This document shows positions 2,861-38,413 of a DNA stretch of 38,413 nt, one piece after another. Both the position numbers and the translations under genes were made by a program. Below the pieces are notes generated by a model, which did no database searches, was not told where the DNA came from, and saw only the letters and a list, made by a program, of their open reading frames with translations. The stretch lies in IMG/VR virus record IMGVR_UViG_3300028581_000105, positions 1 to 38,413 of that record. One strand, written 5' to 3'. Position 1 is the first letter of the stretch. Each line of letters begins with the position of its first letter. The stretch comes from a virus.

Positions 2861-3031
2861 TTATTTGTTTAAAAAATTTATACAATCATTTATTACTATT
2901 TCTGGGTTTTTCTTATATACAGATTCTCGTATTCTTAATAAAGAATAACCATTTTCCATTAAAAAGTCATCTTTTTTATTATCTAAAATTTTAGTTTCTT
3001 CCATATCATGCCAATGTTCAAAAATTTTCAT
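2861..3031 (-). pseudogene. Remnant of a Vsr-like homing endonuclease between the split-intein halves
   Basis: A 56-codon ORF occupies the whole gap between the two helicase genes. Its ATG overlaps the upstream stop (ATGA), and its TAA is four bases before the next ATG. Motifs run EHWHDMEETKILDNKKDDF then ENGYSLLRIRES. This resembles the C-terminal end of Vsr/DUF559-like nucleases (D..K..F..ENGY.LLRI.E). The N-terminal part with the first catalytic residues is absent, so it is likely a decayed homing endonuclease of the kind reported inside split-intein genes. It could alternatively be retained as a small expressed peptide that couples translation of the two halves. The ORF is certain; the origin is inferred. 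Confidence 0.65.
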
Positions 3032-24323: not shown

Positions 24324-25598
24324 TTAAGAAACTAATATTTTAGCTTTTATAGGTTTATCAAAAATATCTTCTCCGGCAGCGTTGGGTTGTATATCAATAG
24401 TTTGTCGTTTTTTAAGGGTAACACCTTGGTTAATTTTACAAACTAGAGCGTTATTATTAAACTCTACAATAAAAACTGTGTTATCAGTAATTTTTTTACT
24501 TTTTCTGATTTTTGTTTCTCCATTGTAACTTGTGCCTCCGATAATATTTTTTATTTCATTAAAAACCGACTGTTGTTCAGGATCTAAACCAGAATCATTT
24601 AACTCTAATTTTACATTAGCTAGTAAACCATTTTCAGGTAAAGTGTTTATTAGTCCATTCCATTTAGTTGAATCACCACCTTTTTTACTGCCATAATTTT
24701 GGATATCTCCAGCTCTTCGTGCTTTTGCTTTAGGTCCTAAAGTAATATCTTTGATATAAATTCTGCCTTCATAACCTTTGGAATCGTCAGTCTTCTCTTC
24801 TGTGGGATTAACATCCACTTCTAAAAGTAATTCTTCTATTTCATTAAAAATATTTTCTTGTGTTTTACCAGGATTCGGTTTGGTTGCTAAAAATTTTTTA
24901 TTGTTAACAACAAATTTAAAAAACCCGTTTAAATCATTGAAAAGAGTTTCTTTGTTAACCTTCCCTCCACCTTTTCCCTCTTTTTCTTTATCAACATCTT
25001 TTTCTTCTTTACCATTTTCATCATCAGAACCTTTTTTCATAACACCCAATAAATCACTACTTAGAATAACATTATAAAATTTACCTTTATTACTTCCAGA
25101 TTCAGCTTTTAAAGCTCTGATACTTTTTTTAGTACCAGGTAAATTGGTGACCACTTCTTTTTCATCGAATTGAATTGTAAATGACGTATCACCACCCTCT
25201 GTTTTAACCTCTAATATAAAAGGTGAATCACTTATAACTCTTGCTAACGTACTAAATTTTGGTGGTTTGGGGATATTAAACTCTTCCTGTAATTCCGGTA
25301 CCTGCAGTACAAAATCAAATTCAAAAGGTTCTATAGCTAACTGTTCAGTGGTCATGATGCCATCTAATTCTGGAATGGCGTATACACCTAATTTTTGTAA
25401 TCTACCCTTAACTCTGTCTAAAGCATCTTCACCTGCCGCAATGTTTGCCGCACCCTTATCACCAGTTATTTCGGCTTCAGAACCACCAAACTTACCATAA
25501 GGGTCCATTAGGGCGTCTTTAACTTTTGTACCCCTACTTCTAGGGTCGGACAATGTCGCCTCTTTTAATTCTTGTTTTATTATTTTTTTAATATCCAT
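24324..25598 (-). CDS. Unknown structural-region protein with leader-like N-terminus
   Basis: The 424-residue product starts MDIKKIIKQELKEATLSDPR. I chose ATG at 25598 because the longer frame to 25655 runs back through a terminator hairpin and the promoter motif. The first 13 residues are a basic amphipathic helix with LKE, like the leader shared by five genes at 28-33 kb. The body has an acidic low-complexity linker (KEEKDVDKEKEGKGGGK near 200) and folded parts (FEFDFVLQVPELQEEF; GRIYIKDITLGPKAKARRAG). It has no recognised family. Its position directly before the tape measure suggests a tail or baseplate component. Confidence 0.8.
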   Translation of the reverse strand: MDIKKIIKQELKEATLSDPRSRGTKVKDALMDPYGKFGGSEAEITGDKGAANIAAGEDALDRVKGRLQKLGVYAIPELDGIMTTEQLAIEPFEFDFVLQVPELQEEFNIPKPPKFSTLARVISDSPFILEVKTEGGDTSFTIQFDEKEVVTNLPGTKKSIRALKAESGSNKGKFYNVILSSDLLGVMKKGSDDENGKEEKDVDKEKEGKGGGKVNKETLFNDLNGFFKFVVNNKKFLATKPNPGKTQENIFNEIEELLLEVDVNPTEEKTDDSKGYEGRIYIKDITLGPKAKARRAGDIQNYGSKKGGDSTKWNGLINTLPENGLLANVKLELNDSGLDPEQQSVFNEIKNIIGGTSYNGETKIRKSKKITDNTVFIVEFNNNALVCKINQGVTLKKRQTIDIQPNAAGEDIFDKPIKAKILVS

Positions 25599-25614
25599 GA
25601 AAATGGTTTTTATT

Positions 25615-25622
25615 ATAAATAT
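25615..25622 (-). promoter_or_regulatory. Candidate late promoter motif before 24324-25598
   Basis: ATATTTATAA on the minus strand lies 16 bases before the ATG at 25598 and just after a terminator. This gives a clean terminator-promoter-gene order and supports the promoter reading of this motif. Confidence 0.5.
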
Positions 25623-25632
25623 CGTGTAAACA

Positions 25633-25659
25633 AAAAATGGGGTTATTAACCCCATTTTT
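25633..25659 (-). terminator. Rho-independent terminator after the gp26-like operon
   Basis: AAAAATGGGGTT / AACCCCATTTTT form a 12-bp stem with a 3-base loop, with a T-run on the minus strand. It begins within the stop codon of the small gene upstream. Confidence 0.88.
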
Positions 25660-25801
25660 ATTTTTTACTTTTTGATTTAACCTTATCGTATTCTTGTTTT
25701 TGTTCCTCTAGTTCTTTTTGCCATAGATCCAAATAAACCCGACGTTCCCAAACTGGTATTGCTAAAACAGCTTCATAAGAAAATCTCATATGTTTAACCA
25801 T
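25658..25801 (-). CDS. Small tail protein downstream of the gp26-like gene
   Basis: From ATG at 25801 this gives 47 residues (MVKHMRFSYEAVLAIPVWER, then a charged helical tail). GGGAG lies nine bases before the ATG. The pattern (KH.-FSYE.V...PVWERR.YL) is like the small proteins I recall after gp26 homologues in T4-like cyanophages. The frame is open upstream to a TTG at 25873, overlapping the gp26-like gene. A longer 71-residue form, or a fusion made by frameshifting at the T7 run in the overlap, cannot be excluded. The gene ends at the operon terminator. Confidence 0.65.
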   Translation of the reverse strand: MVKHMRFSYEAVLAIPVWERRVYLDLWQKELEEQKQEYDKVKSKSKK

Positions 25802-25829
25802 ATAATAAATCTCCCTCCTAAGGGCGATA

Positions 25830-26600
25830 CTATATTCTAACGTTAGGCCAAAAAAAGTTGAGTCCGATGGCAACTGGAGCTTGAAAGGTACCTGTCGGCC
25901 CCTCCACTTCCACCGACATGTCTATACCTGGTTCAATCGAATCTGAGTATTCTCTAAATTTAAGAGAATCAAAAGCTGGCATCACATTAACGTATTGTTG
26001 AATGTAGTTAATATCACGGTTACCATCAATTTCTTTAATTTGTGCTTGTAACCTATAAGTTAACATATTGGAAACTTGTGATTTAGTTGCTTTTTCGTAT
26101 TTTTCAGCACGAGACATAATCGACTTTTCATCACCAACGGTTAAAAGTTTAAATTTAATTTTCAGTTTACTTTTTGGAAGTTCAAAAGAAAATTCACCTC
26201 TTTCGTCTGGTTCAACACCATCAGGGAGTTCTTTATTTTTAAGTTCACTTAAATTGATCTCATAATCAAATTCAACACCACTACCTGGGTCGGTTAACTT
26301 AACTGGGTACATTTCACCGTAACCTGTGGCTCTCAACCAAATCATGATGGCATTTCTATCACCCACCAAAAGGTCTTCCATTGGAACTGGGGATTCTTTA
26401 ATTTTTCTTTCTAAAAGATATTCTAAAACCTTCCCACTTTTAATTAAATTTTGGGAGGTTAGGATGTTTTCGTCCATTGCGGTAAGATACTCAACTTTTA
26501 CCATACCATTTTGACCTGGGTATAAAAGCCCTTTTGAAGGTAATGGAATAACATCGAATGGAACTTGAATTTGAAACTCTTGGGTTTGTTGTTTTGACAT
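25830..26600 (-). CDS. 26: gp26-like baseplate hub/assembly protein (T4 baseplate family)
   Basis: The 256-residue protein contains VIPLPSKGLLYPGQNGMVKV, YLTAMDENILTSQNLIKSG, DLLVGDRNAIMIWLRATGYG, FKLLTVGDEKSIMSRAEKYE, MPAFDSLKFREY and a C-terminal GLNFFWPN. The order PLPSKG..YP, TA.DE.IL, DRN....R...YG and the final FF.P is the pattern of the T4_baseplate family, needed for hub assembly. Spacing to the divergent Dda gene is 125 bases, with a near match to the late motif (CTATTTAT at 26676-26683). Confidence 0.85.
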   Translation of the reverse strand: MSKQQTQEFQIQVPFDVIPLPSKGLLYPGQNGMVKVEYLTAMDENILTSQNLIKSGKVLEYLLERKIKESPVPMEDLLVGDRNAIMIWLRATGYGEMYPVKLTDPGSGVEFDYEINLSELKNKELPDGVEPDERGEFSFELPKSKLKIKFKLLTVGDEKSIMSRAEKYEKATKSQVSNMLTYRLQAQIKEIDGNRDINYIQQYVNVMPAFDSLKFREYSDSIEPGIDMSVEVEGPTGTFQAPVAIGLNFFWPNVRI

Positions 26601-26725
26601 TTTAAAACTTTTTTAATATACTTATTATTTGTAACTAACTTTAAACTTTATGCTTTAATAGTAAAGTTTATAAAAATAAATAGTTATTTTTTGATTTTTT
26701 TTTACTATATTTAAAAAAAAGTTTA

Positions 26726-28096
26726 ATGGAGACTGAAATATTAAAACCTAAGATAGTACTTAACCCTGAACAACAGTTAGCGGTTAATCAAATAACAGAA
26801 TTTATAAAAAAAGGAAGTTCTGATGAATGGTTTATGTTAGAAGGAAAAGCTGGGGTTGGAAAAACAACAGTGGTTACCGAATGTTTAAAACCTTTTCTTT
26901 CTAAAAAAAGAATTATACTTTCAGCCCTTTCACATAAAGCAAAAAAAGTTATATTAGGAAAAATCAAAGAAAACTTTGATGAAGCAGAACTTAGGGGTCT
27001 TTATGCTTCTAGTGTTGCTTCCATGTTAGGTATGACGTTTGATTTGGAAACGGGTAAATTCGTTAAAATATACGGCAAGAAAAAACCAACCATTAAAATG
27101 GTAGATGTTATTGTTGTCGACGAAGCTTCTATGATTAACGAAGAAGGTTTGGCTTTAATAATGTCGGAAAAAAAGAAATCAGCGAAAGTTATTTTCTTAG
27201 GGGATATTGGACAGTTACCACCAATTAGAGAAGTTGATGATGAAAATAGTGGAAAACCTAGCTCAACATTTAAAACAAAAAACAAATATAAGTTAACCAA
27301 AAGGGTTCGACAAACAGAAAATAGTTCCATATTACCTTATTCAGATTATTACTGGAATAATTCCGTTTTAAATACAGAACCTGAAGAAGACCCAGTTCCT
27401 TTAGAAATCCGAAAAAACACTTCTGAAATTATTTTTACAACCAATTTAGAAAAAACAATTATTGAAAATAAAGAACACTTTTTAAAGTTAAAAGAAGTTC
27501 AGAATCAAGATTTAATTAAAGTTATTGTTTATAAAAACAAAACCAGAGAAGCAATTAATTGGTATATTAGAACTATTATATATGGAGAACCAAAAGAATT
27601 TGAAATAGGTGATGTTCTTATTTTTAATGATAACTACAGTGAAGGTGATGAAATTATGGTGGAAAACGCAACCGAAGTTACAATTGTTGGCATCAAAAAA
27701 GAAAAGTTTAATGCAAAATGGGATGGTTATAAATTAGACGTTACCGATAATGAAAGTTTTTGGACCGTGGATGTTTTATCAAAAACAAGTTTAGAGGTTT
27801 ATAATAAACATATTTCAGACCTTTTTAAAGCCGCAAAAAATCTACCCTTTGGAAAAGAAAGAAACCGACAATTAAAAAAAGCTTGGGATTCCAAAAGAAG
27901 GTTCGCAAATTTAGATTTTGGTTATGCAATAACATCACATAAAAGCCAAGGGTCGACATATAAATACGTTATTGTTGTTGAAGACGATATTTTATCGGTT
28001 TCAATGATAAATGAAGTTGAGAAATCACAATCGTTATATACAGCAATAACCAGGGCGTCAGATAAGGTTTGGATTGTTTCGGAATTAAATGCATAA
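26726..28096 (+). CDS. dda: Dda-like SF1B DNA helicase
   Basis: This is a 5'-3' helicase acting at origins, R-loops and stalled forks in T4-like phages. The 456-residue product (T4 Dda 439) has Walker A GKAGVGKTT at 40-48, motif II VVDEAS at 130-135, motif III GDIGQLPPI at 159-167, motif V GYAITSHKSQGST at 399-411, and motif VI YTAITRASDKVWIV at 438-451. It stands alone on the plus strand between minus-strand tail genes, as early genes often do. A TATATTTA close to the -7 box lies 13 bases before the ATG but lacks a correctly spaced TTG. It converges with the gene at 28124. Confidence 0.93.
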   Translation: METEILKPKIVLNPEQQLAVNQITEFIKKGSSDEWFMLEGKAGVGKTTVVTECLKPFLSKKRIILSALSHKAKKVILGKIKENFDEAELRGLYASSVASMLGMTFDLETGKFVKIYGKKKPTIKMVDVIVVDEASMINEEGLALIMSEKKKSAKVIFLGDIGQLPPIREVDDENSGKPSSTFKTKNKYKLTKRVRQTENSSILPYSDYYWNNSVLNTEPEEDPVPLEIRKNTSEIIFTTNLEKTIIENKEHFLKLKEVQNQDLIKVIVYKNKTREAINWYIRTIIYGEPKEFEIGDVLIFNDNYSEGDEIMVENATEVTIVGIKKEKFNAKWDGYKLDVTDNESFWTVDVLSKTSLEVYNKHISDLFKAAKNLPFGKERNRQLKKAWDSKRRFANLDFGYAITSHKSQGSTYKYVIVVEDDILSVSMINEVEKSQSLYTAITRASDKVWIVSELNA

Positions 28097-28123
28097 TTTT
28101 AATTTATCACAAAAGCCTATGGC

Positions 28124-29401
28124 CTAAAGACTTGCTTTATCCCAGTTAAGTTTCTTAAAAGATGTCGTTTTATATGTTGTTAACACATTTCTTTTATGGG
28201 TTATCTCCAGCATATACACGCATAAAGCCATGGCTTCTTCATAACTTAAACCATAATCTTCGTTTAATTTTAACCAAATTTGTTGATGATCTATCCATAA
28301 AAGAGGAACTTTTCCACCTTTGTTAATGTCATCCGCCATTAAAGTTTCACCCATTTCATTCTTATAAAGCATCCATCCTGAGTGTTTTTTTGATTCTACC
28401 ATCCTTAAACTGGACATTAAATCATATAAAAATTTGTACCTTTCTTCTTTTTGTTTCTTGGTGGGTACATAGATTCTTTCTAAACCTGAGTCTCCGTATG
28501 TTTTTGGGTTTATACAATAAAAACCTGTAGCATCCCCGTTAATTTTTTCTAAAATAGAATATACCGTAGATTTAAATTCAGGCCTACCATTTCCATACAT
28601 GCTATTACTAGGTACCAAAACAAAATCATCAGGATTTTTTTCATTTATATATGGTTTAATATTTAAAACAGCTAAAGGATTATTGATATTTTTATCATTT
28701 TTATTAATTAAATAAGAAATTAAAGAACCTTCTTTAACTTCATGGATTAAATATTTAACATTTTCACCCTCTTCTTTTCTATCTTCAATTTCAGATTTTA
28801 AGTTTTTTATTTTTTTTAAAATATTAACATAATTTGGGTCTTCTTTTTGTAAAGAACTTAATTTATTATTTAAGGTGTTCATTTGGTTAAATAACACCTC
28901 AACTCTTTTAGAACTAGTATGACCCATTGTCATACAGTTAGTCCAATTTCTATCGGTATCAGAACCCGCAATATCATAAGGATGACGAGAAATAACAACC
29001 ATTAAATTATCGATATCAGAGGTTAAAGCTTTTCTTGCTTCATCGGAAACAAACTTTTTCATTAAATCATCAGCTTTTAATCTAGTTAAAACTTTACCGA
29101 TCGAGGTTGTGTTTTTAGACTCACCAAATTTAGCAATACCTTTAATATAATCCAAAACTTGATATCCATTTTGAGTTAAAAAATCAGTAACTTCTTTTTC
29201 AACATTAGAAACAGGGCCAGATTTTTCTTCTTTTCCTAGTGGTATGTAAATACGATAATAATTTTTATCATGTTCATATTCATCACCTAATTTTTTAAAA
29301 ATATCGGTATATCTTTCACGATTAAAAGCTTTAACATATTTTCTAAATTGGGATGGTTTTAAGGCTTCTTGTAATAATATTTTATGGATTATGTTTCTCA
29401 T
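28124..29401 (-). CDS. Putative internal/injected protein with leader, WTNCM domain and shared C-terminal domain
   Basis: The 425-residue product has three parts. Residues 1-13 (MRNIIHKILLQEA) are a capsid-targeting-like leader with LQE. Residues about 130-300 hold SRHPYDIAGSDTDRNWTNCM, LISYLINKNDKNINNPLAVL and a YG.....F..TV block, a pattern I recall from many unannotated phage proteins. Residues 324-409 (FLYDLMSSLRMVES to THKRNVLTT) are homologous to residues 34-119 of the product of 30532-30903. No catalytic function is recognised. A late motif (29418-29425) lies 16 bases before the ATG. The head-packaging idea rests on the leader only. Confidence 0.75.
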   Translation of the reverse strand: MRNIIHKILLQEALKPSQFRKYVKAFNRERYTDIFKKLGDEYEHDKNYYRIYIPLGKEEKSGPVSNVEKEVTDFLTQNGYQVLDYIKGIAKFGESKNTTSIGKVLTRLKADDLMKKFVSDEARKALTSDIDNLMVVISRHPYDIAGSDTDRNWTNCMTMGHTSSKRVEVLFNQMNTLNNKLSSLQKEDPNYVNILKKIKNLKSEIEDRKEEGENVKYLIHEVKEGSLISYLINKNDKNINNPLAVLNIKPYINEKNPDDFVLVPSNSMYGNGRPEFKSTVYSILEKINGDATGFYCINPKTYGDSGLERIYVPTKKQKEERYKFLYDLMSSLRMVESKKHSGWMLYKNEMGETLMADDINKGGKVPLLWIDHQQIWLKLNEDYGLSYEEAMALCVYMLEITHKRNVLTTYKTTSFKKLNWDKASL

Positions 29402-29417
29402 AATGAAATCTTTTTTA

Positions 29418-29425
29418 ATAAATAT
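29418..29425 (-). promoter_or_regulatory. Candidate late promoter motif before 28124-29401
   Basis: ATATTTATTA on the minus strand lies 16 bases before the ATG at 29401. It shares the short intergenic space with the divergent plus-strand promoter at 29446. Confidence 0.45.
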
Positions 29426-29445
29426 TTAGTTTTCAATAAAAAAAT

Positions 29446-29495
29446 TTGCCAAATCAAAAAACTTTCTTATATTTGTATACTAAAATTTATACAAA
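29446..29495 (+). promoter_or_regulatory. Bacteroidota-type promoter with operator-like dyad, metallopeptidase gene
   Basis: TTG at 29446-29448, 19 bases, then TATATTTG at 29468-29475 is an exact TTG-N19-TAnnTTTG promoter. A perfect inverted repeat TTTGTATA (29472-29479) / TATACAAA (29488-29495), with an 8-base spacer, overlaps the -7 box and ends at the start codon. This suggests repressor control. Confidence 0.7.
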
Positions 29496-30347
29496 ATGAA
29501 AACAACAGAAGAAAAACTTAACCGATTAAAAGAAGTTCTTTCAATACCAACATACTCACAAGATGAAAAGTTAATGATTGAATACCTCCAAAAAGTTTTA
29601 ACCGAAAAAGGTTATGGCCATTACACAGATGTACACGGTAATGTTTACGTTACTAAAGGTCAAACAGAAAGTTACCCTTGTTTTATTGCCCACACCGATA
29701 CCGTTCACAAAGTTAATTTAAATTTAACCGTTGTTGAAAGTTACCATAAGGGAGAAACCATTCTTAAAGGTGTTGATAGTTCTAACGGAAAAGCAACTGG
29801 TATTGGTGGCGATGATAAATGTGGTATTTTCTTGGCACTTGAAATGTTAGACACATTACCAAATGTTAAAGCAGCTTTCTTTGTATCTGAAGAAATTGGG
29901 TGTAGAGGTAGTATGTACGCTGACCCTGAGTTTTTTAAAAACGTTGGTTACGCCATTCAGTATGATTCGCCAGAGGGTGATTCAATGAGTTTGACTTTAA
30001 TGGGTAGATATCTTTTTAATCAAAAATCGGAGTTTGCTAACAAAGTAACTGGGTTAATTAAAGAACACGGTATTAATGATTGGGCATACCATCCTTATAC
30101 CGACGCATGGCAAATCGTTGAACAGTTTGAAATTGCTTGTTTGAATCTTGCGGCAGGATATTACCAATATCATACAGCAAATGAATATGTTTCAATCAAA
30201 GATGTTGAAAACGGATTCCAATTGGGATTAAAACTGGTTGAAACTTTGGGTGAGAAAAAATATGGTAACAAAAAAGAAAGCAAATATCAAATTTTAAATG
30301 AAGGTTATAACCAGAGAAAAAAGTTAGATTACGGATATAACGATTAA
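29496..30347 (+). CDS. M20-type zinc metallopeptidase (compact, no lid domain)
   Basis: This is a di-zinc aminopeptidase/carboxypeptidase-type hydrolase. All usual ligands are visible in the 283-residue product: AHTDTV (H66, D68), GIGGDDKCG (D106), the general base and ligand in VSEEIG (E132, E133), YDSPEGDS (D157) and YHTANEYVS (H226). Cellular M20 enzymes have about 370-420 residues, with an inserted dimerisation domain; this one lacks that insertion and keeps only the catalytic domain. It is rare in phages and may release amino acids or process a peptide signal. Both roles are inference. It is a single-gene unit, with its own promoter and strong terminator. Confidence 0.88.
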   Translation: MKTTEEKLNRLKEVLSIPTYSQDEKLMIEYLQKVLTEKGYGHYTDVHGNVYVTKGQTESYPCFIAHTDTVHKVNLNLTVVESYHKGETILKGVDSSNGKATGIGGDDKCGIFLALEMLDTLPNVKAAFFVSEEIGCRGSMYADPEFFKNVGYAIQYDSPEGDSMSLTLMGRYLFNQKSEFANKVTGLIKEHGINDWAYHPYTDAWQIVEQFEIACLNLAAGYYQYHTANEYVSIKDVENGFQLGLKLVETLGEKKYGNKKESKYQILNEGYNQRKKLDYGYND

Positions 30348-30373
30348 AAAAAGGGACTCTAGGTCCCTTTTTT
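30347..30373 (+). terminator. Rho-independent terminator of the metallopeptidase gene
   Basis: AAAAAAGGGAC (30347-30357) and GTCCCTTTTTT (30363-30373) form an 11-bp stem with a 5-base loop and a T6 tail, starting at the stop codon. Confidence 0.92.
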
Positions 30374-30418
30374 GTATTATATAAAATACGGTAATTTAAT
30401 TTTTAAGATAAAGCCATT

Positions 30419-30616
30419 AACACCCTTCGTTTATGGGTCATTTCCAGCATACGGTACTCGCTGGATTGCCGATTATCGGATGTCAATACCTTTCGTTTAT
30501 GTGTCATTTCCAGCGTTTATTCACTCGCCAATTATAAATCATCAGTTGTCAATACCTTTCGTTTATGGGTCATCTCCAACATACGTAAGCATAAAGCCTT
30601 AATATCTTCCGTTTTT
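30419..30616. repeat. Three degenerate 66-bp tandem repeats at the 3' end of gene 30532-30903
   Basis: Units start at 30419, 30485 and 30551, each with a well-conserved first part (AATACCTTTCGTTTATGGGT, then CATTTCCAGC). The unit at 30551 codes on the minus strand for the end of gene 30532-30903 (RMLEMTHKRKVLTTDDL). The other two stay in the same reading frame (TLEMTHKRKVLTSDN and RMLEMTHKRRVLMALS) but lie beyond two TAA stops. They look like decayed duplications of a 22-codon segment. Confidence 0.85.
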
Positions 30617-30903
30617 AAACCATAACCTCTTAATTTTACCCAGATTCTGTCATAATCAACATATAAACTAGGGTTTTTGGTACCGGTATTGATATCATCT
30701 GCCATTAAATTTTCCCCATTTTCATTCTTGTACACCATCCAATTTTTCGATTTTTCTGATTCTGATTCTACCATCTTTAAACTGGACATTAGATCATATA
30801 AAAATTCTTCAGCAGGGGTAAATTGTTTAACATTCTGTTGAACCCATTCAAAATTTTCAGGGTCAAATTCTTCTTTTAATATTTTTTTAATTAAGTTTTT
30901 CAT
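30532..30903 (-). CDS. Small leader-bearing protein, paralogue of the C-terminal domain of 28124-29401
   Basis: The 123-residue product starts MKNLIKKILKEEFDPENF, a basic amphipathic leader with LKE. Residues 34-119 (FLYDLMSSLKMVES, NWMVYKNENGENLMADDI, MLEMTHKRKVLTT) align closely with residues 324-409 of the 425-residue protein at 28124. It thus looks like a version lacking the middle domain. It is the last gene of an operon beginning at 32928, and its start overlaps the preceding stop (ATGA). Function unknown. The 3' end lies in a 66-bp tandem repeat. Confidence 0.75.
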   Translation of the reverse strand: MKNLIKKILKEEFDPENFEWVQQNVKQFTPAEEFLYDLMSSLKMVESESEKSKNWMVYKNENGENLMADDINTGTKNPSLYVDYDRIWVKLRGYGLKTEDIKALCLRMLEMTHKRKVLTTDDL

Positions 30904-31271
30904 TTTAAAGTTAAAAGATATTTTAACTTATTTATTTCTCCAAGCATTTCATCACGAATATTTAACAAATCGGTATCTTTTTGTGGGTCTAAAGAATTAC
31001 TTAAAGACATTAAAAATTCTAAATTTTGATTTAAAAATTCGTTTAATCCCAAGTCATTGGTATTTTTTAAAACAATGGTTCCTTCACCTGAAGCAAATTC
31101 AACACGGCCATATTTACCCATGTAAACTTCAATAAAGCCGTCAATAAGGCCGTTTAATGCATCATAAATACCGCCGTAAGCGTTATGTCTTGCATATGAT
31201 TTTGTTTGCCAATGTAAAACTCTAAATTGTTCTTGTAGAGTTATAAAGTTAATCATTAATTGTTCTTTCAT
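30900..31271 (-). CDS. Dps/ferritin-like protein (DUF5856-type)
   Basis: The 123-residue, all-helical protein contains LHWQTKSYARHNAYGGIYDA followed by LNGLIDGFIEVYMGKYGR. H20, H29, D44 and E48 match the ferroxidase ligand order of Dps (H..H...D...E). The H-to-D spacing of 15 and D-to-E spacing of 4 are as in E. coli Dps; the two His are three residues closer. This suggests an iron-oxidising or cage-forming protein protecting DNA, or a structural use of the fold. Overlaps TAATG (upstream) and ATGA (downstream) show operon coupling with the caspase-like peptidase and the small paralogue. No leader is seen. Confidence 0.75.
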   Translation of the reverse strand: MKEQLMINFITLQEQFRVLHWQTKSYARHNAYGGIYDALNGLIDGFIEVYMGKYGRVEFASGEGTIVLKNTNDLGLNEFLNQNLEFLMSLSNSLDPQKDTDLLNIRDEMLGEINKLKYLLTLK

Positions 31272-32368
31272 TATCTGTAGTATATTCTTTGTTTGTTATA
31301 ATCTATTATTTGGTTATTATCACCGTTATAGATGTTTTTAAAAACATCAACAGAATTCGGTGATTCTATAGGTAGTGCTGCTTTTAAGGCTTTAGTGAAT
31401 AAAGTATTTGAATATTGTAATTGTACATCATCACAACCATGTACTTGACAATAATTTGCTTCACATAATTCTGATATTACCATACCAGTATAAAAACCAT
31501 GTAAATCATGTGGTACAACAAATTTATCTGCATTACACCAAACAGCCACAATCGGTTTTGTTTTTAAAATATTTAAAAAGTCATAACCAATGGAGTAATT
31601 ATTATATTTAACATATTGACCATTATCGTTTAACTCAACACCATTAACACCACCAATCATACTTAACATTAAACCACCTGGTGACCCATGACCCATCATT
31701 ATAATTCTTCGGTGATTTTTCACGGTTTCCTTTAAATTATACATATCTTCTTTAGTTGTTAAAACTGTTGCGTTTAAACCGGCATAAGATGCTTTTAAAA
31801 AGTCAGTAGTTCTATCATCTGGGTGTATGATTAATGTGCCACCTTTTTTGACGTTTCTAGTTAACATCTCTTCTAACTCTTCTGGAGTATAAGATTTAGT
31901 GTCTATTGTGTTATCATAAGTGCCGTAACCACCATAAGTGCCGTAACCACCGTAACCACTAGAAAAATCTTTTTTGTTTTTAATATGAAAACATAATTCT
32001 TCAACCGCATACAAAGTGTATACATTAATATTTCTTGGTGACTTTAAAATTTTATAATATATCTCATCTGGAACATCTCTTAACGATTCTAAGACATCAC
32101 GAACAACAAATCTGTTAATATGTTTAAGATTTTTATGGAAACATTCGGCAGCTGAAACTACGGCTTCTAAGCTTTCAACATCAAACCCACCTAATTCATT
32201 AGCTTCAATAATCATCCATTCCAAATATCCATTATTACCAGAAGGATCTGCCATGGATAAATCTCTTATGGCAACTTCTGGGACTTCATATTTAGAGTAT
32301 TTTTTTATAATATTCTCTAAGTGACTCTCATTTAATATGGTTTCTAAAATAATATGTTTAAGATTCAT
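31271..32368 (-). CDS. Leader-bearing caspase-like (clan CD) cysteine peptidase
   Basis: The 365-residue product has several parts. Residues 1-14 (MNLKHIILETILNE) are a leader with LNE. Residues 30-130 are a helical domain (ADPSGNNGYLEWMIIEA; AAECFHKNLKHINRF). Residues 137-151 are a Gly/Tyr linker (GYGGYGTYGGYGTY). Residues 175-305 are a caspase-type core: strand TLIIHPDD, then IIMMGHGSPGGLM with H227, then PIVAVWCNADKF with C278 and GFYTGMVISELCEA. The His-Gly and Cys after a hydrophobic strand, 51 residues apart, are the clan CD dyad arrangement (48 in caspase-1). AGGAGG and GGAGG lie just upstream. The TAATG start overlaps the coiled-coil gene. Substrate unknown. Confidence 0.75.
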   Translation of the reverse strand: MNLKHIILETILNESHLENIIKKYSKYEVPEVAIRDLSMADPSGNNGYLEWMIIEANELGGFDVESLEAVVSAAECFHKNLKHINRFVVRDVLESLRDVPDEIYYKILKSPRNINVYTLYAVEELCFHIKNKKDFSSGYGGYGTYGGYGTYDNTIDTKSYTPEELEEMLTRNVKKGGTLIIHPDDRTTDFLKASYAGLNATVLTTKEDMYNLKETVKNHRRIIMMGHGSPGGLMLSMIGGVNGVELNDNGQYVKYNNYSIGYDFLNILKTKPIVAVWCNADKFVVPHDLHGFYTGMVISELCEANYCQVHGCDDVQLQYSNTLFTKALKAALPIESPNSVDVFKNIYNGDNNQIIDYNKQRIYYR

Positions 32369-32928
32369 TATTCCTCCTTTCCTCCTGTGAGTAACTTACT
32401 TAATTTTTCTTTTAAATCAGCTATTTCTTCTTCCATTTCTTCAACCTCAGTATCTCTATCACTTAATTTTTCTTTTAGGTCTGCCACTTCTTCTTCTAGA
32501 TCTTCAACCTCACCATCTCTGGAATCACGACCTTCATCATAACCTTCTTGCCTCGCATCGTTAACTCGTTCTCTATGGTCTTCTTCCCAAATATAATCAT
32601 CACAACAACCATCACAAGAACAATCATTGCTAGAACCATAATCACGACCCAGATCCCAAGCTACATTAAATTGGCTATATAATTCATCAGCAATATCGTT
32701 TAAAATATCTAATTTTGTAATACCGTTATCGACCAACAATTCAAAAGTATCATCCATGTCAACACTCCATTCACTTTCAATTCTACGCCAACTTTTTTTA
32801 AACTGTTTTTCACCTCTACTGACATCCAAATCATTTACCCAAGAAAATTCGTCACCAACATCTTCCTTTATGATTTTAACAACCAATTTTTGGATGTCGT
32901 TTTCCGTTAATTTAATAATTTTTTTCAT
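32368..32928 (-). CDS. Leader-bearing coiled-coil protein with a cysteine cluster
   Basis: The 186-residue product starts MKKIIKLTENDIQKLVVKII, then KED. The form K(L)TE.D...LV..I..E recurs at the N-terminus of many Bacteroidota phage proteins in my memory. C103, C105, C108 and C109 (CSCDGCC) could bind a metal. Residues 140-180 are a coiled coil made of a 21-residue unit repeated twice (EVEDLEEEVADLKEKLS at 140, EVEEMEEEIADLKEKLS at 161). No family recognised. It is the first gene of the operon 32928-30532, preceded by the palindromic late motif at 32933-32950. Confidence 0.78.
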   Translation of the reverse strand: MKKIIKLTENDIQKLVVKIIKEDVGDEFSWVNDLDVSRGEKQFKKSWRRIESEWSVDMDDTFELLVDNGITKLDILNDIADELYSQFNVAWDLGRDYGSSNDCSCDGCCDDYIWEEDHRERVNDARQEGYDEGRDSRDGEVEDLEEEVADLKEKLSDRDTEVEEMEEEIADLKEKLSKLLTGGKEE

Positions 32929-32932
32929 TAAA

Positions 32933-32950
32933 ATATTTATTAATAAATAT
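32933..32950. promoter_or_regulatory. Palindromic copy of the candidate late promoter motif
   Basis: ATATTTAT-TA-ATAAATAT is a perfect 18-bp palindrome. Read on the minus strand, the copy at 32950-32943 lies 14 bases before the ATG at 32928. Confidence 0.45.
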
Positions 32951-32972
32951 GCATAATTTTTAAAAAATTATT

Positions 32973-33011
32973 TTGCCAATCATATATTTAAAAGTATATT
33001 TGTATCACAAA
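32973..33011 (+). promoter_or_regulatory. Bacteroidota-type promoter of the small RNA
   Basis: TTG (32973-32975), 19 bases, then TATATTTG (32995-33002), an exact consensus match. TTTGT (32999-33003) and ACAAA (33007-33011) form a short dyad over the -7 box and the predicted start near 33008. Confidence 0.65.
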
Positions 33012-33156
33012 ATTAAAACACAGGGTTGAATCGGTTAATCCCTTAAGCTTAATCGACGTAATGTGACGAAACAACATGGTGAAAATCCACAATCTTTAAC
33101 AGATATTAAAGATGAAAAATAAAAAACCCATCGGTCAGAATACTGGTGGGTTTTTT
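33008..33156 (+). ncRNA. Stand-alone structured small RNA candidate (about 150 nt)
   Basis: A consensus promoter and a strong terminator frame a segment with no credible ORF. Hairpins: TCGGTTAA (33031-33038) with TTAATCGA (33049-33056), including one G-U pair; ATCTTTAA (33092-33099) with TTAAAGAT (33106-33113), loop CAGATA; and the terminator. A middle part, GACGAAACAACATGGTGAAA, looks single-stranded. CCC in the first loop could pair with GGG at 33023-33025 as a pseudoknot. It lies on the plus strand between two minus-strand genes, overlapping the terminal codon of 33155-33553. It may be a regulatory RNA or a mimic of a host RNA; no known family is recognised. Confidence 0.6.
33121..33156 (+). 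terminator. Rho-independent terminator of the small RNA (possibly bidirectional)
   Basis: AAAAAACCCA (33121-33130) pairs with TGGGTTTTTT (33147-33156). Inside, CGGT pairs with ACTG, giving a nearly continuous stem with loop CAGAAT. It also immediately follows the stop of the minus-strand gene 33155-33553 and has a T-run on that strand too. Confidence 0.85.
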
Positions 33157-33553
33157 AATTGCCAAACAATTGCAATTGATCACGACCAATTTCAAAATCT
33201 TTTTTATTCATTACGGTAACAATATTTAATATCCATTGATAAGGGTCAACCATTTCGGGCTCAATAACAATATTTAAATAAGGGTATTTGGTGTCGGAAA
33301 TAATAAATCTAACCTTATCCTTAATCTCATCGACAGCAATTTTAAAAGCAATATCATCCAAAACCTTTTTAACCAAATTAAGAATGTCGACATCATGAAT
33401 AACAACACCTTTTTCTGCAACGTGACGCCATTGTCTTTTTTTGGAATGTTCACTTGGATCGTGTCGTAAATTAAAATTAATAAAAATATTAGCTTTTAAT
33501 TGTGCAATTCTTCTTTCCAGAATTAATTGTTCTTTAATAAGTTTTTTAATCAT
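33155..33553 (-). CDS. Leader-bearing protein of unknown function, weakly DUF4258-like
   Basis: The 132-residue product starts MIKKLIKEQLILERRIAQLK, a basic amphipathic leader with IKE and ILE. The rest has H-x3-R-x2-R (EHSKKRQWRHVAEKG), a helical middle, then FIISDTKYPYLNIVIEPEMV and WILNIVTVMNKKDF. The order H..R..R, helix and beta strands ending TV is reminiscent of DUF4258 and related BECR-fold nucleases, but the match is weak. A copy of the late motif ends only four bases before the ATG, so either the transcript is leaderless or a later start is used. Confidence 0.7.
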   Translation of the reverse strand: MIKKLIKEQLILERRIAQLKANIFINFNLRHDPSEHSKKRQWRHVAEKGVVIHDVDILNLVKKVLDDIAFKIAVDEIKDKVRFIISDTKYPYLNIVIEPEMVDPYQWILNIVTVMNKKDFEIGRDQLQLFGN

Positions 33554-33566: not shown

Positions 33567-35150
33567 CTAATAATTGGAAAATTGCCATCTTATATGACCA
33601 CAATCATATATTCGATATATTTTACGATTAAACATTATTTCTTTTTCGGTTTGTTTAACATCAAAGCCTTGTTTAATTAACTCAGATTTTTTGAAATTTA
33701 ACCTATGGTATCTAATACCGTTATGGATATACCAATAATTTGGTTTTGTTGACCCACAATTTTCAAACCCTAATTTTGTGTAAACACCACCGTTAAACCA
33801 ACGGTTATCTGAGTATGATATAATTTTTTTAACCCTAAAATTTTTGGTAAAAAAACTAAATAATCTGGAGGCCGCTCCCACCACAATCGTATTTTTCTTA
33901 TTACAAAATCTAATTAGTTCCCAATCGATATTATTACCAACACCATTTCTTTTTCCAAAAGTCATCAAAGAAACTAATTCGTCTTTATAGTACAATCCAA
34001 GTTTAACAGTAGAAGACACATTTCCCTGTATATGGTTTTCAGATAAAAAAAGTTTACTTTCATTAGGTGTGACTTTTTTTATTTCACAGTTTCTGGAATA
34101 TATTTTAGTTGAAATTAGTTTAAGTTTATTTTTTAATATGGATAAAACAATCTCTTGTTTAAACAACCATTCATCTTCGAAAATATGGATTAAATCAATA
34201 TTAGATTTTTTACATAAATTAGTTTTTACTAAATGGTAATCATTTGCCACATATAATTCATTATGCCAATAAATTCCGTCAAACTCAATAGCTGTTTTTA
34301 TTGATGGGATATAAATATCAATTTCAAGAGAAGAATTTGGTATTCTATTGTGTCTTTCATATTCGATACCCCAATCATCTAATATAGAACATAGTGAATC
34401 TTCATGCGACGACGAAAAACTCATGCCAATTGGGTTACATTTTGTGCATAGAACGTAATTATGTTTTTTCCTTTCTCGTAATAAATTTTGTGTTATAGAA
34501 TACACATCGTCACATTTATTACATTTAATATCGAGCATAGATAAATCGGTGGTAATTTTTTGGATTTCTAACTCTGGGTATCGTTCAATAACCTTATTGC
34601 TTAATAAATTTTTATAACTATCCGATTTAGCAAAGTTATCAACCCCATATTTTATATTACAAGTTTCTTTATACTTTTCAAAATTATTATACATTTTACT
34701 CCCATATAATTTTAATTTTGTTTGTAACATTTTTTCAGTATTGTTATAGTTTTTATCACCATAACACTCAATTTTGGTTTTATCACGTTTTTTAATGAAG
34801 TCTTTGTGTTGGGTGTAAAACTCCACATTATGGTTTTTTAAGTTAGATTCTTTGATTTTATTAATCAATAACCCACTGTTATTTGCACATTCTAAAGAAC
34901 AAAACTGATTGTATCCACGGTCAAATCTTTCCGAAAATTTAACTTCAGTATTACAAGACTGACATTTTGGTTTTTGTGTTAGATTATTGAAATAAAACCA
35001 TATTTTTTCTTTAAAAGAAGAATCTGGTTTTAAATACTGTTGACAATACGATATTATATCAACGTATTCTTGAGGGTAATTTTTTGCAAACCACGCCTCT
35101 TTGGTTTTGTGACCAGATTTATTATCTGTTGTAAAAAAAGAAAAGTCCAT
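33567..35150 (-). CDS. Homing-type endonuclease with zinc fingers and Vsr-like nuclease core (copy 1)
   Basis: The 527-residue protein is probably a mobile site-specific endonuclease. From the N-terminus: CQSCNTEV...FCSLECAN zinc finger; repeats with a KYG core (KIECYGDKNY, KLKLYGSKMY, NIKYGVDNF) typical of phage DNA-binding repeats; a second zinc knuckle (CNKCDDVY...CTKCNPIG); nuclease core EIDIYIPSIKTAIEFDGIYW, followed by IDLIHIFEDEW; and a C-terminal domain (NHIQGNVSSTVKLGLYYKDE, SYSDNRWFNGGVYTKLGF) resembling a GNAT-like fold. I chose ATG at 35150 (MDFSFFTTDNKSGH) because it aligns with the start of the paralogue at 35809; the frame is open to 35195. Confidence 0.85.
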   Translation of the reverse strand: MDFSFFTTDNKSGHKTKEAWFAKNYPQEYVDIISYCQQYLKPDSSFKEKIWFYFNNLTQKPKCQSCNTEVKFSERFDRGYNQFCSLECANNSGLLINKIKESNLKNHNVEFYTQHKDFIKKRDKTKIECYGDKNYNNTEKMLQTKLKLYGSKMYNNFEKYKETCNIKYGVDNFAKSDSYKNLLSNKVIERYPELEIQKITTDLSMLDIKCNKCDDVYSITQNLLRERKKHNYVLCTKCNPIGMSFSSSHEDSLCSILDDWGIEYERHNRIPNSSLEIDIYIPSIKTAIEFDGIYWHNELYVANDYHLVKTNLCKKSNIDLIHIFEDEWLFKQEIVLSILKNKLKLISTKIYSRNCEIKKVTPNESKLFLSENHIQGNVSSTVKLGLYYKDELVSLMTFGKRNGVGNNIDWELIRFCNKKNTIVVGAASRLFSFFTKNFRVKKIISYSDNRWFNGGVYTKLGFENCGSTKPNYWYIHNGIRYHRLNFKKSELIKQGFDVKQTEKEIMFNRKIYRIYDCGHIRWQFSNY

Positions 35151-35164
35151 ACATTTATTTATTA

Positions 35165-35172
35165 ATAAATAT
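35165..35172 (-). promoter_or_regulatory. Candidate late promoter motif before endonuclease copy 1
   Basis: ATATTTATTA on the minus strand lies about 14 bases before the ATG at 35150. A further ATATTTAT at 35217-35224 is in the same gap after the tail tube gene. Confidence 0.35.
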
Positions 35173-35264
35173 ACGGACTTTTCGTTGGTTGTCAAGTATG
35201 TACTTATTTAAGAAAAATAAATATATACAGAGAAAACAAAGTTTGTATTTGATAGAGAAATAAA

Positions 35265-35753
35265 TCAGAACACACTAATAGCTCTGTCAAAACGGAGCGT
35301 TGCAGTGATTTCAGCAATTTCAGATGTACTATAATCTAAAGAACCGAAGTCAACATCGTTCAACATGGTTCCCTGAAGAATCCATTTTTCGATTACAACA
35401 CCCGTTGGGTCTAACATTTCTAATTCAATGTCTTTCTTGTAACCAGCAGCATAACCTTGTCTGCCCGTCACTGATTCTGAATGTAAACGTACCCACTCCA
35501 TAAGAGCTTGGGTAGCCGAAGGACCAATCGGGTCACGGAAAGTTACACTGATAGTTTCCCATTTAAACCTACCAACCACAAAGGTAGAGGTGTTAAGGAA
35601 TTGAATTTCAGTTTCTTCCGATGTGTATTTAGGTCTAGAAGCTGATTTTACATACCACTCCTGGATCCCAAGCGGAGATGGAAATCTTAAAATAAATCGG
35701 TTTTGTTTTTTTGGTTCGTAAGGAATGGGCATCCTCATCAATAAATCTGCCAT
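35265..35753 (-). CDS. 19: gp19-like tail tube protein
   Basis: The 162-residue protein forms the stacked rings of the inner tail tube. It shows the gp19 pattern: RFILRFPSPLGIQEWYVKSA near the start, ETEIQFLNTSTFVVGRFKWE, ISVTFRDPIGPSATQALMEW, a Gly/Tyr-rich loop (GRQGYAAGYKKD), DIELEMLDPTGVVIEKW and TATLRFDRAI at the end. T4 gp19 is 163 residues. GC content is visibly higher than in its neighbours. The gene is flanked on both sides by paralogous endonucleases. Confidence 0.93.
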   Translation of the reverse strand: MADLLMRMPIPYEPKKQNRFILRFPSPLGIQEWYVKSASRPKYTSEETEIQFLNTSTFVVGRFKWETISVTFRDPIGPSATQALMEWVRLHSESVTGRQGYAAGYKKDIELEMLDPTGVVIEKWILQGTMLNDVDFGSLDYSTSEIAEITATLRFDRAISVF

Positions 35754-35808: not shown

Positions 35809-37452
35809 ATGATAAACGAATATTTTTTATTTTTTATGGATAATAAATCTGGTTGGAAAACCAACGAAAAAAAATTATCCAAAAAAGAACCAAAAATTTA
35901 TGAAGAGGTTAAAATTTTTATTGAAAAAAATTCATTAAACTATTTACCTTTTCAACAACAAGTTTGGCACTTTATTAATAAATATATCGAAATACCAAAA
36001 TGTGCAGAATGTAATAAAAATTTAAATTTCAAAAGAAGTTTAAAAGAAGGGTATGGGAAGTATTGTTCTTTAATTTGTACCAATAAAAATAAAGATCATA
36101 TTCAAAATGTAAAAAACACTAATAATAAAAAATACGGCGGTAACGCACCAATAAATTCTCAGTCTGTTAAAAACAAAATAGAAAAAACTAATTTACAAAA
36201 ATATGGTGTTGAGAACACTTATAATAGAATCGATTTAGTTGAAAAAGGTTTTTTACAAAAATACGGTGTTAATCATGTTTCCAAAGTTGAAGGTGTTACC
36301 GAAAGGAAAAAACTAACCAATATCGAGAAATACGGAAAATCTACAATTTTATCAACCTCAGAGGTCTTGGGTAAAACGCATGATACTAGAAGAAAATATT
36401 TTATCGAAAAATATGATAAATTTGATTTTATAACATACACAGGTGACACCTTAAATATTATTTGCCAGGTATGTAATAAAAATTATGATATTCACCGTAA
36501 TAGTTTTAGATATCGTGTATTAGCTAATGTTAATCCTTGTACATTGTGTAACCCAATAGGTGAATCGACTTCTATCCAGGAAAAAGAATTACAAAAATTA
36601 GTAGCAGAAATAACTAACGGTAATTGTTTGCTTAACGATAGAAGTTTAATCTCGCCAAAAGAGTTAGATATATTTATCCCAGATAAAAAACTGGCAATAG
36701 AATTCAATGGGGTTTATTGGCATAATGAATTTTTTGTTGAGAAAGAGTACCATTTAAAAAAGTATTTAAATTGTAAATCTAAAAATGTTGACTTAATACA
36801 AATATTCCAAGATGAGTGGGAGGTTAAAAAAGATATTATAACCTCTTTAATAAAAAATAGGCTGGGGATTAACGGTAAAAATGTAATATACGCCAGAAAA
36901 TGTGAAATAAAAGTGGTAGGTAATAAAGAGCATAATGATTTTTTAAATAAAAACCATATCCAAGGAAAGGTTAACTCTTCTGTTAAGTTAGGTTTATACT
37001 ATAACGATGAATTAGTATCTTTGATGACGTTTGGCAGGCTTAGAAAATCTTTAGGATCTAAACATGTTGAAGGTGAATGGGAGTTAATAAGATTCTGTAA
37101 TAAATTAAATTACAATGTTTTAGGCGGGGCTTCTAGGTTATTTAAATCTTTTATAAAAACGTATGACCCTAAAAAAATATTATCTTTTTCTGATAACAGA
37201 CTTTTTAACGGTAATATGTATAAAGTATTGGGGTTTGAGTATGAGGGGTATTCGAAACCGTCTTATTTTTATGTTATAAACGGAATTAGATACCATAGAT
37301 ATAATTTTAGAAAAGATGTTTTAGTTGCTGAAGGGTATGATAAAGATAAAACTGAACATCAAATAATGCAAGAAAGGGGTATCCCTAGAATCTACGATTG
37401 TGGTAATAAAAAATGGGTCTGGAAAACCCAAACCCATTTTAATGATGTTTAA
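35809..37452 (+). CDS. Homing-type endonuclease with zinc fingers and Vsr-like nuclease core (copy 2)
   Basis: The 547-residue paralogue of 33567-35150 has the same domain order: zinc finger CAECNKNL...YCSLICTN; KYG repeats (NNKKYGGNAP, NLQKYGVENTYN, FLQKYGVNHVS, NIEKYGKST); second zinc knuckle CQVCNKNY...CTLCNPIG; nuclease core ELDIFIPDKKLAIEFNGVYW, with VDLIQIFQDEW; C-terminal domain NKNHIQGKVNSSVKLGLYYN and SFSDNRLFNGNMYKVLGFEY. It is oriented opposite to copy 1, with the tail tube gene between. The last 15 codons contain a hairpin that serves as a terminator for the convergent gene. No clear promoter is seen. Confidence 0.87.
   Translation: MINEYFLFFMDNKSGWKTNEKKLSKKEPKIYEEVKIFIEKNSLNYLPFQQQVWHFINKYIEIPKCAECNKNLNFKRSLKEGYGKYCSLICTNKNKDHIQNVKNTNNKKYGGNAPINSQSVKNKIEKTNLQKYGVENTYNRIDLVEKGFLQKYGVNHVSKVEGVTERKKLTNIEKYGKSTILSTSEVLGKTHDTRRKYFIEKYDKFDFITYTGDTLNIICQVCNKNYDIHRNSFRYRVLANVNPCTLCNPIGESTSIQEKELQKLVAEITNGNCLLNDRSLISPKELDIFIPDKKLAIEFNGVYWHNEFFVEKEYHLKKYLNCKSKNVDLIQIFQDEWEVKKDIITSLIKNRLGINGKNVIYARKCEIKVVGNKEHNDFLNKNHIQGKVNSSVKLGLYYNDELVSLMTFGRLRKSLGSKHVEGEWELIRFCNKLNYNVLGGASRLFKSFIKTYDPKKILSFSDNRLFNGNMYKVLGFEYEGYSKPSYFYVINGIRYHRYNFRKDVLVAEGYDKDKTEHQIMQERGIPRIYDCGNKKWVWKTQTHFNDV
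37410..37440 (-). terminator. Terminator of 37460-38413 embedded in the endonuclease 3' end
   Basis: On the minus strand AAAATGGGT (37440-37432) pairs with ACCCATTTT (37418-37410), with a T6 tract. The hairpin codes on the plus strand for the last residues of the endonuclease (KWVWKTQTHF region). Confidence 0.65.
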
Positions 37453-37459
37453 TTTTTTA

Positions 37460-38413
37460 TTAACTTATTTTAAACATTAAAGATTTAATCTTATTAACCT
37501 CTTCTGTTAATAAAGGATTTCTTTTTTTAACTGATTCTTCTTGTGTTGCAGGGTTTTCTTCTTTTGGTTTACCTTTCTTCTCTGTAGTACCACCACCAGA
37601 AAGTTTACCTTCTTTTTTCAATTTATGCATGTATTGGAACATGTTCATAAGTTCAAAAATAAAATTATTTAAATGCTTTTTGAAAGAACCCCTATCTTGT
37701 GCATCTTTTAAAAATGATTTATTTGGTTCATCGGCATTATACCCTTTTTCTTCGTAGATATAAGATTCCTCCATTTTATTAATGTTACCACCACCTAAAG
37801 TGGCCATCTTGTCAACCATACCAACTAGTTTTTTGTTTTTACCAGAGTAAATAACATTAAATAATTCATCAATAAAGCCTTTCAATGATTGAACGCCTTT
37901 TGGGTTATCTGATGGTACGTTGAACATTTTAACAAAATCTGTGGCTATCAAAGGGTTTGATTTCATTTTTTTCACAAAATTATTAATAACCTTATCGTCT
38001 GTATTACCCATTTTTTTAACTTTATTTCGGATAATTTCTAGACGAGTTAAAAGCTCTTCAAATTTCTTAATTTTATCTACACTACTTTTTTTGGTTAAAT
38101 ACTCTAAAGTTCTTTTGTCCTTTATAAATTTACCTTCTATTAATATTGTATTATTTTTCATAATATTTTCATTTATTTTTTCTACTTTTGAACAATTTAT
38201 TGCAAATGGAGCGTCATTACTATCTTTTTTCTTTATCTGAACCAACCCATTGTCTAATAATTGTGTAACAACATGTACAGATTTTTCGCCCCTTTTTGAT
38301 GTATATGAAACTTCTGTATTAACTTTTAACCCGTAACAAGGGTTATCTCTTTCTTTTTTTGATACTAAAGCGTCACCAGATAGAGTACCTTTAGTGTTTA
38401 AAAATTTTTTATT
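37460..38413 (-). CDS. Unknown phage protein, 5' end beyond the window
   Basis: The frame is open from the window end (38413) to the TGA or TAA-type stop at 37460, giving at least 317 codons. A TTG at 38245 is not needed as a start because the upstream sequence reads on as protein (GTLSGDALVSKKERD, GEKSVHVVTQLLDNGLVQIK). The visible part is lysine-rich and mostly helical (KIKKFEELLTRLEIIRNKVK, SLKGFIDELFNVIY), with a disordered Lys/Glu/Pro linker near the end (GGGTTEKKGKPKEENP) and a final helix NPLLTEEVNKIKSLMFKIS. No family recognised. It is upstream of the tail tube gene in the late direction, so it may be a virion protein. Confidence 0.75.
   Translation of the reverse strand, partial: NKKFLNTKGTLSGDALVSKKERDNPCYGLKVNTEVSYTSKRGEKSVHVVTQLLDNGLVQIKKKDSNDAPFAINCSKVEKINENIMKNNTILIEGKFIKDKRTLEYLTKKSSVDKIKKFEELLTRLEIIRNKVKKMGNTDDKVINNFVKKMKSNPLIATDFVKMFNVPSDNPKGVQSLKGFIDELFNVIYSGKNKKLVGMVDKMATLGGGNINKMEESYIYEEKGYNADEPNKSFLKDAQDRGSFKKHLNNFIFELMNMFQYMHKLKKEGKLSGGGTTEKKGKPKEENPATQEESVKKRNPLLTEEVNKIKSLMFKIS

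Follow-up and report, generated by a model that had tools for sequence, protein, structure and literature searches.

Exchangeable N-terminal leaders as candidate capsid-targeting propeptides in a group of T4-like phages

Introduction

A tag that loads proteins into the head of phage T4 has been known for decades, and some of the loaded proteins disarm host defences, as IPI does against a type IV restriction enzyme. Basic proteins that resemble carriers of this capsid-targeting sequence (CTS) have been noted among T4's close relatives. Beyond these and the phiKZ/SPN3US group, injected proteins are, to our knowledge, mostly unknown. The T4 CTS is long established (PMC5694885, PMC9026906), and its cleavage and the ejection of the internal proteins form an established precedent (PMC9026906). 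In SPN3US and phiKZ, the prohead protease gp245 removes N-terminal propeptides of ejected head proteins by cutting after x-x-E (PMC5694885). Here we analyze the complete IMG/VR record IMGVR_UViG_3300028581_000105 (38,413 bases; "the window"), which is a piece of a T4-like myovirus and encodes six proteins with short N-terminal leaders that end in Glu. These leaders are very probably cleavable propeptides that target proteins to the capsid as those of the T4 internal proteins do.

Like the T4 CTS, carried by IPI, IPII, IPIII and the Alt propeptide, the leaders are short, stand on otherwise unrelated proteins and place L/I-x-E before the putative mature body; close relatives of the window encode an S77 protease and a gp23-type capsid. 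Their sequences differ: T4 has MKTYQEFIAE, whereas the leaders here follow MKxLIxKILxE, MKKxIxLTESDLxxIVKRVIxE or MxxxITEEEKxxILSLYxIxE. Since none of those in the window resembles MKTYQEF, they would be a variant that works like the T4 CTS rather than a member by sequence. Many more proteins per genome are tagged than in T4, here as a prediction from sequence alone. Closer in sequence are the starts of T4 gp24 (MAKINELLRE/S; a slash marks the cleavage junction, known or predicted) and gp22 (MLKEQLIAE/A), which lie near the short leaders and this group's scaffold starts; those propeptides are on shell and scaffold proteins, whereas the leaders here are on diverse cargo. The SPN3US/phiKZ propeptides are also distinct, with the motif A-x-E (S/A/G-x-E in phiKZ), a length often above 100 residues and a different phage group as carrier. 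No description of such leaders in Flavobacterium or Bacteroides phages was found in open-access papers, a weak absence with subscription papers and preprints outside the scope; as capsid-targeting propeptides of different sequence they are apparently undescribed for these phages.

Six leaders in the window

All six leader N-termini given by the initial annotation are present, on the minus strand.

25560..25598, minus strand: leader 1, MDIKKIIKQELKE/ATLS, on tagged protein 1 (24324..25598, 424 aa)
29366..29401, minus strand: leader 2, MRNIIHKILLQE/ALKPSQF, on tagged protein 2 (28124..29401, 425 aa, phrog_17056-like domain)
30871..30903, minus strand: leader 3, MKNLIKKILKE/EFDPE, on tagged protein 3 (30532..30903, 123 aa)
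32327..32368, minus strand: leader 4, MNLKHIILETILNE/SHLEN, on tagged protein 4 (31271..32368, 365 aa)
32863..32928, minus strand: leader 5 (long type), MKKIIKLTENDIQKLVVKIIKE/DVGDE, on tagged protein 5 (32368..32928, 186 aa, acidic coiled coil)
33515..33553, minus strand: leader 6, MIKKLIKEQLILE/RRIAQ, on tagged protein 6 (33155..33553, 132 aa)
38135..38161, minus strand: possible seventh site, tentative, MKNNTILIE/GKFIKD, on the ORF at 37460-38161

Leader length is 10-24 residues, with a mode of 11, on otherwise unrelated proteins. Leader 1 starts at an internal ATG (25598) and not at the first ATG of its ORF; the start was placed there because a 406-aa homolog in G002 begins at that point with the identical leader MDIKKIIKQELKE. 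Protein 6 has an unusual Arg at P1', and its phrog_12814 match starts at residue 13. At the possible seventh site, the equivalent LISE/GKFIKD is internal in an 825-aa relative from G001. G001 (108 kb) and G002 (70 kb) are close relatives of the window, with tail tubes 93% identical to its own.

The leaders had been called amphipathic, which the hydrophobic moment supports for two of the six, with a third borderline, and not for the remainder. The bodies are mostly unrelated, as claimed, except that the domain of protein 3 recurs at the C-terminus of protein 2 (an 89-aa region, 63% identity). Protein 3 has several G001 paralogs with the same leader, and small tagged proteins of this type are scattered in G001 at 1520-2329, 36099-36473, 72148-72525 and 81151-81537.

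A peptidase was also supposed to be among the six, and for none of them could this be supported. Protein 4 consists of a DPSGNNxYL domain and a region with GHG...WC residues, and gave no Pfam match at E 0.1 and none to PDB sequences at E 10. Its GHGSPGG and VWCNAD residues suggest a His-Cys (caspase-like) site, for which profile and PDB sequence searches gave no support. The real peptidase of the region is an M20/M42 enzyme at 29496-30347 (PF05343/PF01546); it was rejected as a tagged protein for want of a convincing leader, and its start is presumably the natural N-terminus of that family. PDB sequence searches returned nothing meaningful, the AlphaFold models were too poor for use (pLDDT 57.8 for protein 2, 52.1 for protein 4), and no homologs of protein 2 were found in bacterial genomes.

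Exchange of leaders between homologs

The strongest evidence for a tag comes from homologous proteins that appear to have swapped leaders. In the protein 2 family, from nine phages or fragments, the shared domain begins (A/V)(L/I)xPSxxR; the leaders have a mean identity of 16% and the next 30 residues one of 62%. The junction in this family was fixed by alignment, and a Glu ends the leader at one alignment column, directly before the domain, in 9/9. The junctions include MRNIIHKILLQE/ALKPSQF, MGKFIITEEEKKHILSLYSIDE/ALTPSQY, MRLRLTEPELKKVIIKMVNE/VLKPSQF and MKHLNSFKNFNE/ALKPSQF, as well as MRITDFKKFE/AISPSQF and MQYTDLIE/ALKPSEY.

Other families behave similarly. Short (MRNLDRLIKKVLLE) and long (MKRVIRLNETDITNLVKRVLNE) leaders interchange in the MFFSNL family, where all 15 of 15 end in (L/I/V)-x-E, and the family encoded directly downstream of the major capsid protein (MCP) has widely differing leaders with the same end in 17/17 N-termini. 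These two counts are a matter of consistency and not an independent test, because the junction was located there by the presence of Glu. The mature start of the MCP-downstream family, ATSDSGGGRGSY, is similar to the one predicted for the mature capsid, ATSDGSSGSFET. A HAD family has 35 distinct N-termini, in each of which a Glu closely precedes the domain. The DPSGNNKYL-domain and RNA 2'-phosphotransferase-like families swap leaders likewise; for example, the DPSGNNKYL domain has different leaders in front of it in G001:93063 and in G003:8199, and none in G001:73151. The synteny slot of protein 1, adjoined by a baseplate-hub-like and a tape-measure-like gene, carries other leaders in L006, L007, L009 and G008.

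Leaders are thus exchangeable between cargos with the junction residue kept. Such a pattern would be expected of a tag that is cut off at one fixed site, and it is not easily explained in any other way.

Frequency of the leaders

The mark by which the initial annotation had distinguished the leaders, L/I-x-E within the first 22 residues (residues 2-22), does not separate them from other proteins. It occurs in 12 of the 31 ORFs of the window (9.0 in composition-preserving shuffles) and in 343/1053 clade proteins (32.6%; 262 by shuffling), and in control phages the figure is 25.3%. Because shuffles and controls come this close, the bare criterion is nearly uninformative on its own.

A stricter rule requires Glu (P1) at residue 10-26, L/I/V at P3, a hydrophobic residue or Ala at P4, another hydrophobic residue one helical turn earlier, no proline and a net positive charge. 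Searching the related proteomes with it found 72 of 1012 proteins, pooled and de-duplicated, against 14.1±3.7 in shuffles (maximum 23 in 300). Single genomes gave 4/31 in the window (0.52 in shuffles), 12/111 in G001 (1.5) and 18/182 in G003 (2.9). The excess is specific to Glu: with the P1 residue replaced, the 72 matches fall to 12 for Asp, 9 for Asn, 27 for Ser and 30 for Lys. Controls, drawn from partial sequences of the Cellulophaga phages phi38:1 and phi14:2, of crAss001 and of T4, had 2 matches in 269 proteins (2.6 in shuffles), one of them T4 gp61.1 (MKTFKEFIKE).

The strict rule was devised post hoc, with the leaders already known, so a test of pairs is more independent. It counts same-genome proteins with similar first residues and bodies unrelated by BLAST. 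There were 60 such pairs in G000-G002 against 18.9±4.7 expected, 78 against 17.7 in G003, 127 against 23.5 in G013 and 46 against 13.8 in phage immuto. T4, the positive control, gave 28 against 17.7, with the known MKTYQEFIAE as the best cluster. No excess was seen in G011 (9 against 7.5) or in phi14:2. Two measures were of little use: tblastn of the 22-aa consensus leader against phages gave no match, peptides so short lying below its reach, and the median alignment start of leader-bearing versus other proteins is uninformative because close relatives share leaders.

Chance and paralogy might produce similar starts, since AT-rich phage genes often begin with Lys/Ile/Leu-rich helices and duplicates share them. 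A quarter (25%) of control proteins meet the bare criterion, protein 3 has its paralogs, and ThyA of G013 fits the strict rule through its natural N-terminus. Yet shuffles reach 14 where 72 are observed, controls show no excess, and the excess persists when homologous bodies are excluded. The shuffles, the leader-swap alignment and the pair test largely refute this explanation, which we regard as very improbable.

ThyA was judged a false positive, as were Rossmann-type epimerases that match the rule. Recognizable helicase, RecA-like, portal, terminase, tail tube and sheath proteins in the window and G001 carry no leader.

Match to the predicted capsid and scaffold cleavage sites

A gp21-type S77 protease (PF03420) and a gp23-type capsid (PF07068) are encoded by G001, G008, G011, immuto and Mel-JY01. 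When 76 capsid proteins are aligned on their VRR(V/I)F block, the predicted propeptide ends in (L/I/M)(N/T/S)E and the next residue is S, T, A, N or G; the T4 gp23 junction is FLTE/AEIG. The leaders thus end in the same gp21 motif, L/I-x-E, as the capsids of these phages, the capsids being those of relatives, and their junction agrees with the predicted capsid site (L/I)(N/T)E/(A/S/T) and with the sites in T4 gp22, gp23 and gp24. The scaffold of immuto starts MSNKDLLKQAIAE/AK, its T4 gp22 counterpart MLKEQLIAE/AQ. Further junctions predicted in immuto are MKKSQLRQIIKE/A, MKKSELVKLIKE/E and MKKQILSEQFRRMQKLAGIITE/S, with IVSE/A in its MCP. Peptidase_S78 (PF04586), an alternative protease, was found in none of seven relatives.

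Indirect as the evidence is, the initial analogy to the T4 CTS is well supported by leader swapping with an invariant Glu, by the match to predicted capsid, scaffold and core sites, by S77 and gp23 in relatives, and by the Glu-specific enrichment.

Tags of other large phages

Complete public genomes with a protein 2 homolog differ according to their protease. The two with S77, Atu_ph07 and LR756502, have a Glu-ended tag on it; in the S77-less Lu11, HRDY3, Yoloswag, Alexandra and JA29 the homolog has none (p=0.048 over these seven genomes, which are not independent).

Several phages have tags of their own. Similar-start pairs number 230 against 49 expected for MKHLKSFxxFNE in G016, and 58 against 16 for M(K/R)WxQL(T/S/N)E in Atu_ph07. 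In LR756502 (642 kb; L323-L338) the tag MKHLKxYKxFE/S gives 1734 pairs against 52.6 in shuffles, and one cluster holds 103 tagged proteins with non-homologous bodies in 320 kb, half of the genome. Of its tag-like proteins 75% have a Glu within residues 8-15, versus 44% of the others; for Asp the values are 39% and 41%. Tags without Glu occur in the S77-less Lu11 (MKIQLAVA; L275-L284), HRDY3 (MELxLALA; L313-L322) and Yoloswag (MEIVVSLS; L303-L312), each on 6-10 unrelated proteins that include the protein 2 homolog. An earlier view of the Lu11 and Yoloswag homologs as leaderless was dropped when these were found.

The Glu-less tags also speak for another explanation, that the leaders are a general localization or docking helix (for membrane, tail or another phage structure) which the prohead protease leaves uncut, with the Glu as no more than a helix cap. 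Tagged genes among tail genes would fit it, as would a mild enrichment of L/I/V-x-E at the N-termini of control phages (30% versus 24% of Glu). A helix cap, however, ought to tolerate Asp, which gave 12 matches to the 72 of Glu, and in swapped families the Glu falls precisely where the domain begins, in agreement with the MCP site and mature start. We consider such a helix unlikely.

A generalization from these tags has, in our estimate, an even chance of being right. Large tailed phages would carry lineage-specific short N-terminal address tags read by their own head-assembly machinery, Glu-less in S77-less phages, and in many of them the number of packaged protein species would far exceed that of T4 (tens in relatives of the window, about 100 in half of LR756502). 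Cargo of the protein 2/phrog_17056 type would wear the local tag, so that in an uncultured phage the tag could reveal which proteins are packaged in the head.

A motif upstream of leader genes

A TATTTATWA-like motif lies at most 60 nt upstream of 4/6 leader genes in the window. In the window, G001 and G003, many leader and virion genes have it 11-28 nt ahead of their start. Those of G001 include the tube, sheath, portal, protease and core genes, and in that genome the motif shows a 15-fold concentration in front of ORFs. G001 and G003 together have it before 15/34 leader genes and 48/259 others (p=0.001). As the motif was picked from the window, G003 alone is the fairest test (7/20 versus 26/162, p=0.045). 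It resembles the T4 late promoter TATAAATA and is possibly a late promoter.

Proposed mechanism and cargo

In the proposed mechanism the leader, 7-23 residues long, usually basic and probably helical, would serve to dock its protein on the core of the prohead. The gp21-type (S77) prohead protease of the phage would then cut after (L/I/V)-x-E, and the mature protein would remain in the head with the DNA. From the sequence comparisons we infer docking, cleavage and presence in the virion; delivery into the host at infection may follow, with less certainty.

Among the tagged proteins are a SprT-like zincin (G001:80275), a ferritin-like protein (G003:24337), an M23 peptidase (G005:21119), a 5'-nucleotidase (immuto 109856) and a fusion of RNA 2'-phosphotransferase-like and GNAT domains (L193:9860), which is like T4 Alt solely as a candidate head-carried modifying enzyme. 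Protein 2, G001:93063 and G003:5675 have phrog_17056; most tagged proteins have no match.

A further explanation agrees on packaging and cleavage and differs on the fate of the proteins: the leaders would mark prohead-core components that are cut in the prohead, many of which serve head assembly and are then degraded or left behind rather than injected as effectors. Scaffold and core proteins carry the same junction, several tagged proteins are encoded in the head gene cluster (the MCP-downstream family, FAM8; G001:80275; G001:93063), and in T4 the core proteins, once cleaved, are for the most part expelled before the DNA is packaged (PMC9026906). On the other hand, many tagged bodies are enzyme-like, for example the SprT-like, ferritin-like, RNA 2'-phosphotransferase-GNAT and 5'-nucleotidase proteins, which is odd for a disposable scaffold, and most tagged genes are scattered outside the head cluster. 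We hold this fate to be possible, at rather less than an even chance.

Several observations weigh against capsid-targeting propeptides. The window, a 38-kb fragment, has no protease gene, capsid gene or head cluster, and no S77 match was found in the tagged relatives G003, G005, G013 and G016, perhaps fragments or diverged. Protein 1 and its counterparts lie within a tail operon, flanked by baseplate hub and tape measure. Either this locus encodes a head-loaded protein, then, or heads are not the only destination of the tag; the HAD family is also encoded among tail genes. Some leaders have Glu, Arg or Asp at P1' instead of the usual small residue, and the LR756502 leader (KKFE/A) and some in G016 violate the P3 rule. 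Finally, the seven genomes of the S77 comparison are not independent, and the TATTTATWA motif was picked after inspecting the window.

Gene setting of the window

The gene that anchors the contig to T4-like myoviruses is

35265..35753, minus strand: tail tube protein (T4 gp19 type), without leader; PF06841 match weak, phrog_4542 match strong

A Bacteroidota host is plausible, because Flavobacterium is the host of immuto, an S77-bearing phage related through its tail tube and protease. Two related large ORFs (33567-35195 and 35809-37452), on either side of the tail tube gene, resemble homing endonucleases inserted among tail genes. In the region 172-2856, the large ORF 172-2367 holds intein-like sequence, as does a helicase-like ORF at 3028-4365 (CFIGDTKIECGG, CIFLREKVETKNRG).

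Implications

If the leader is a loading tag, the cargo lists of an abundant uncultured group of phages, possible counter-defence proteins and enzymes included, could be read from sequence. The question of which proteins these phages inject would then become testable in the isolated relative immuto.

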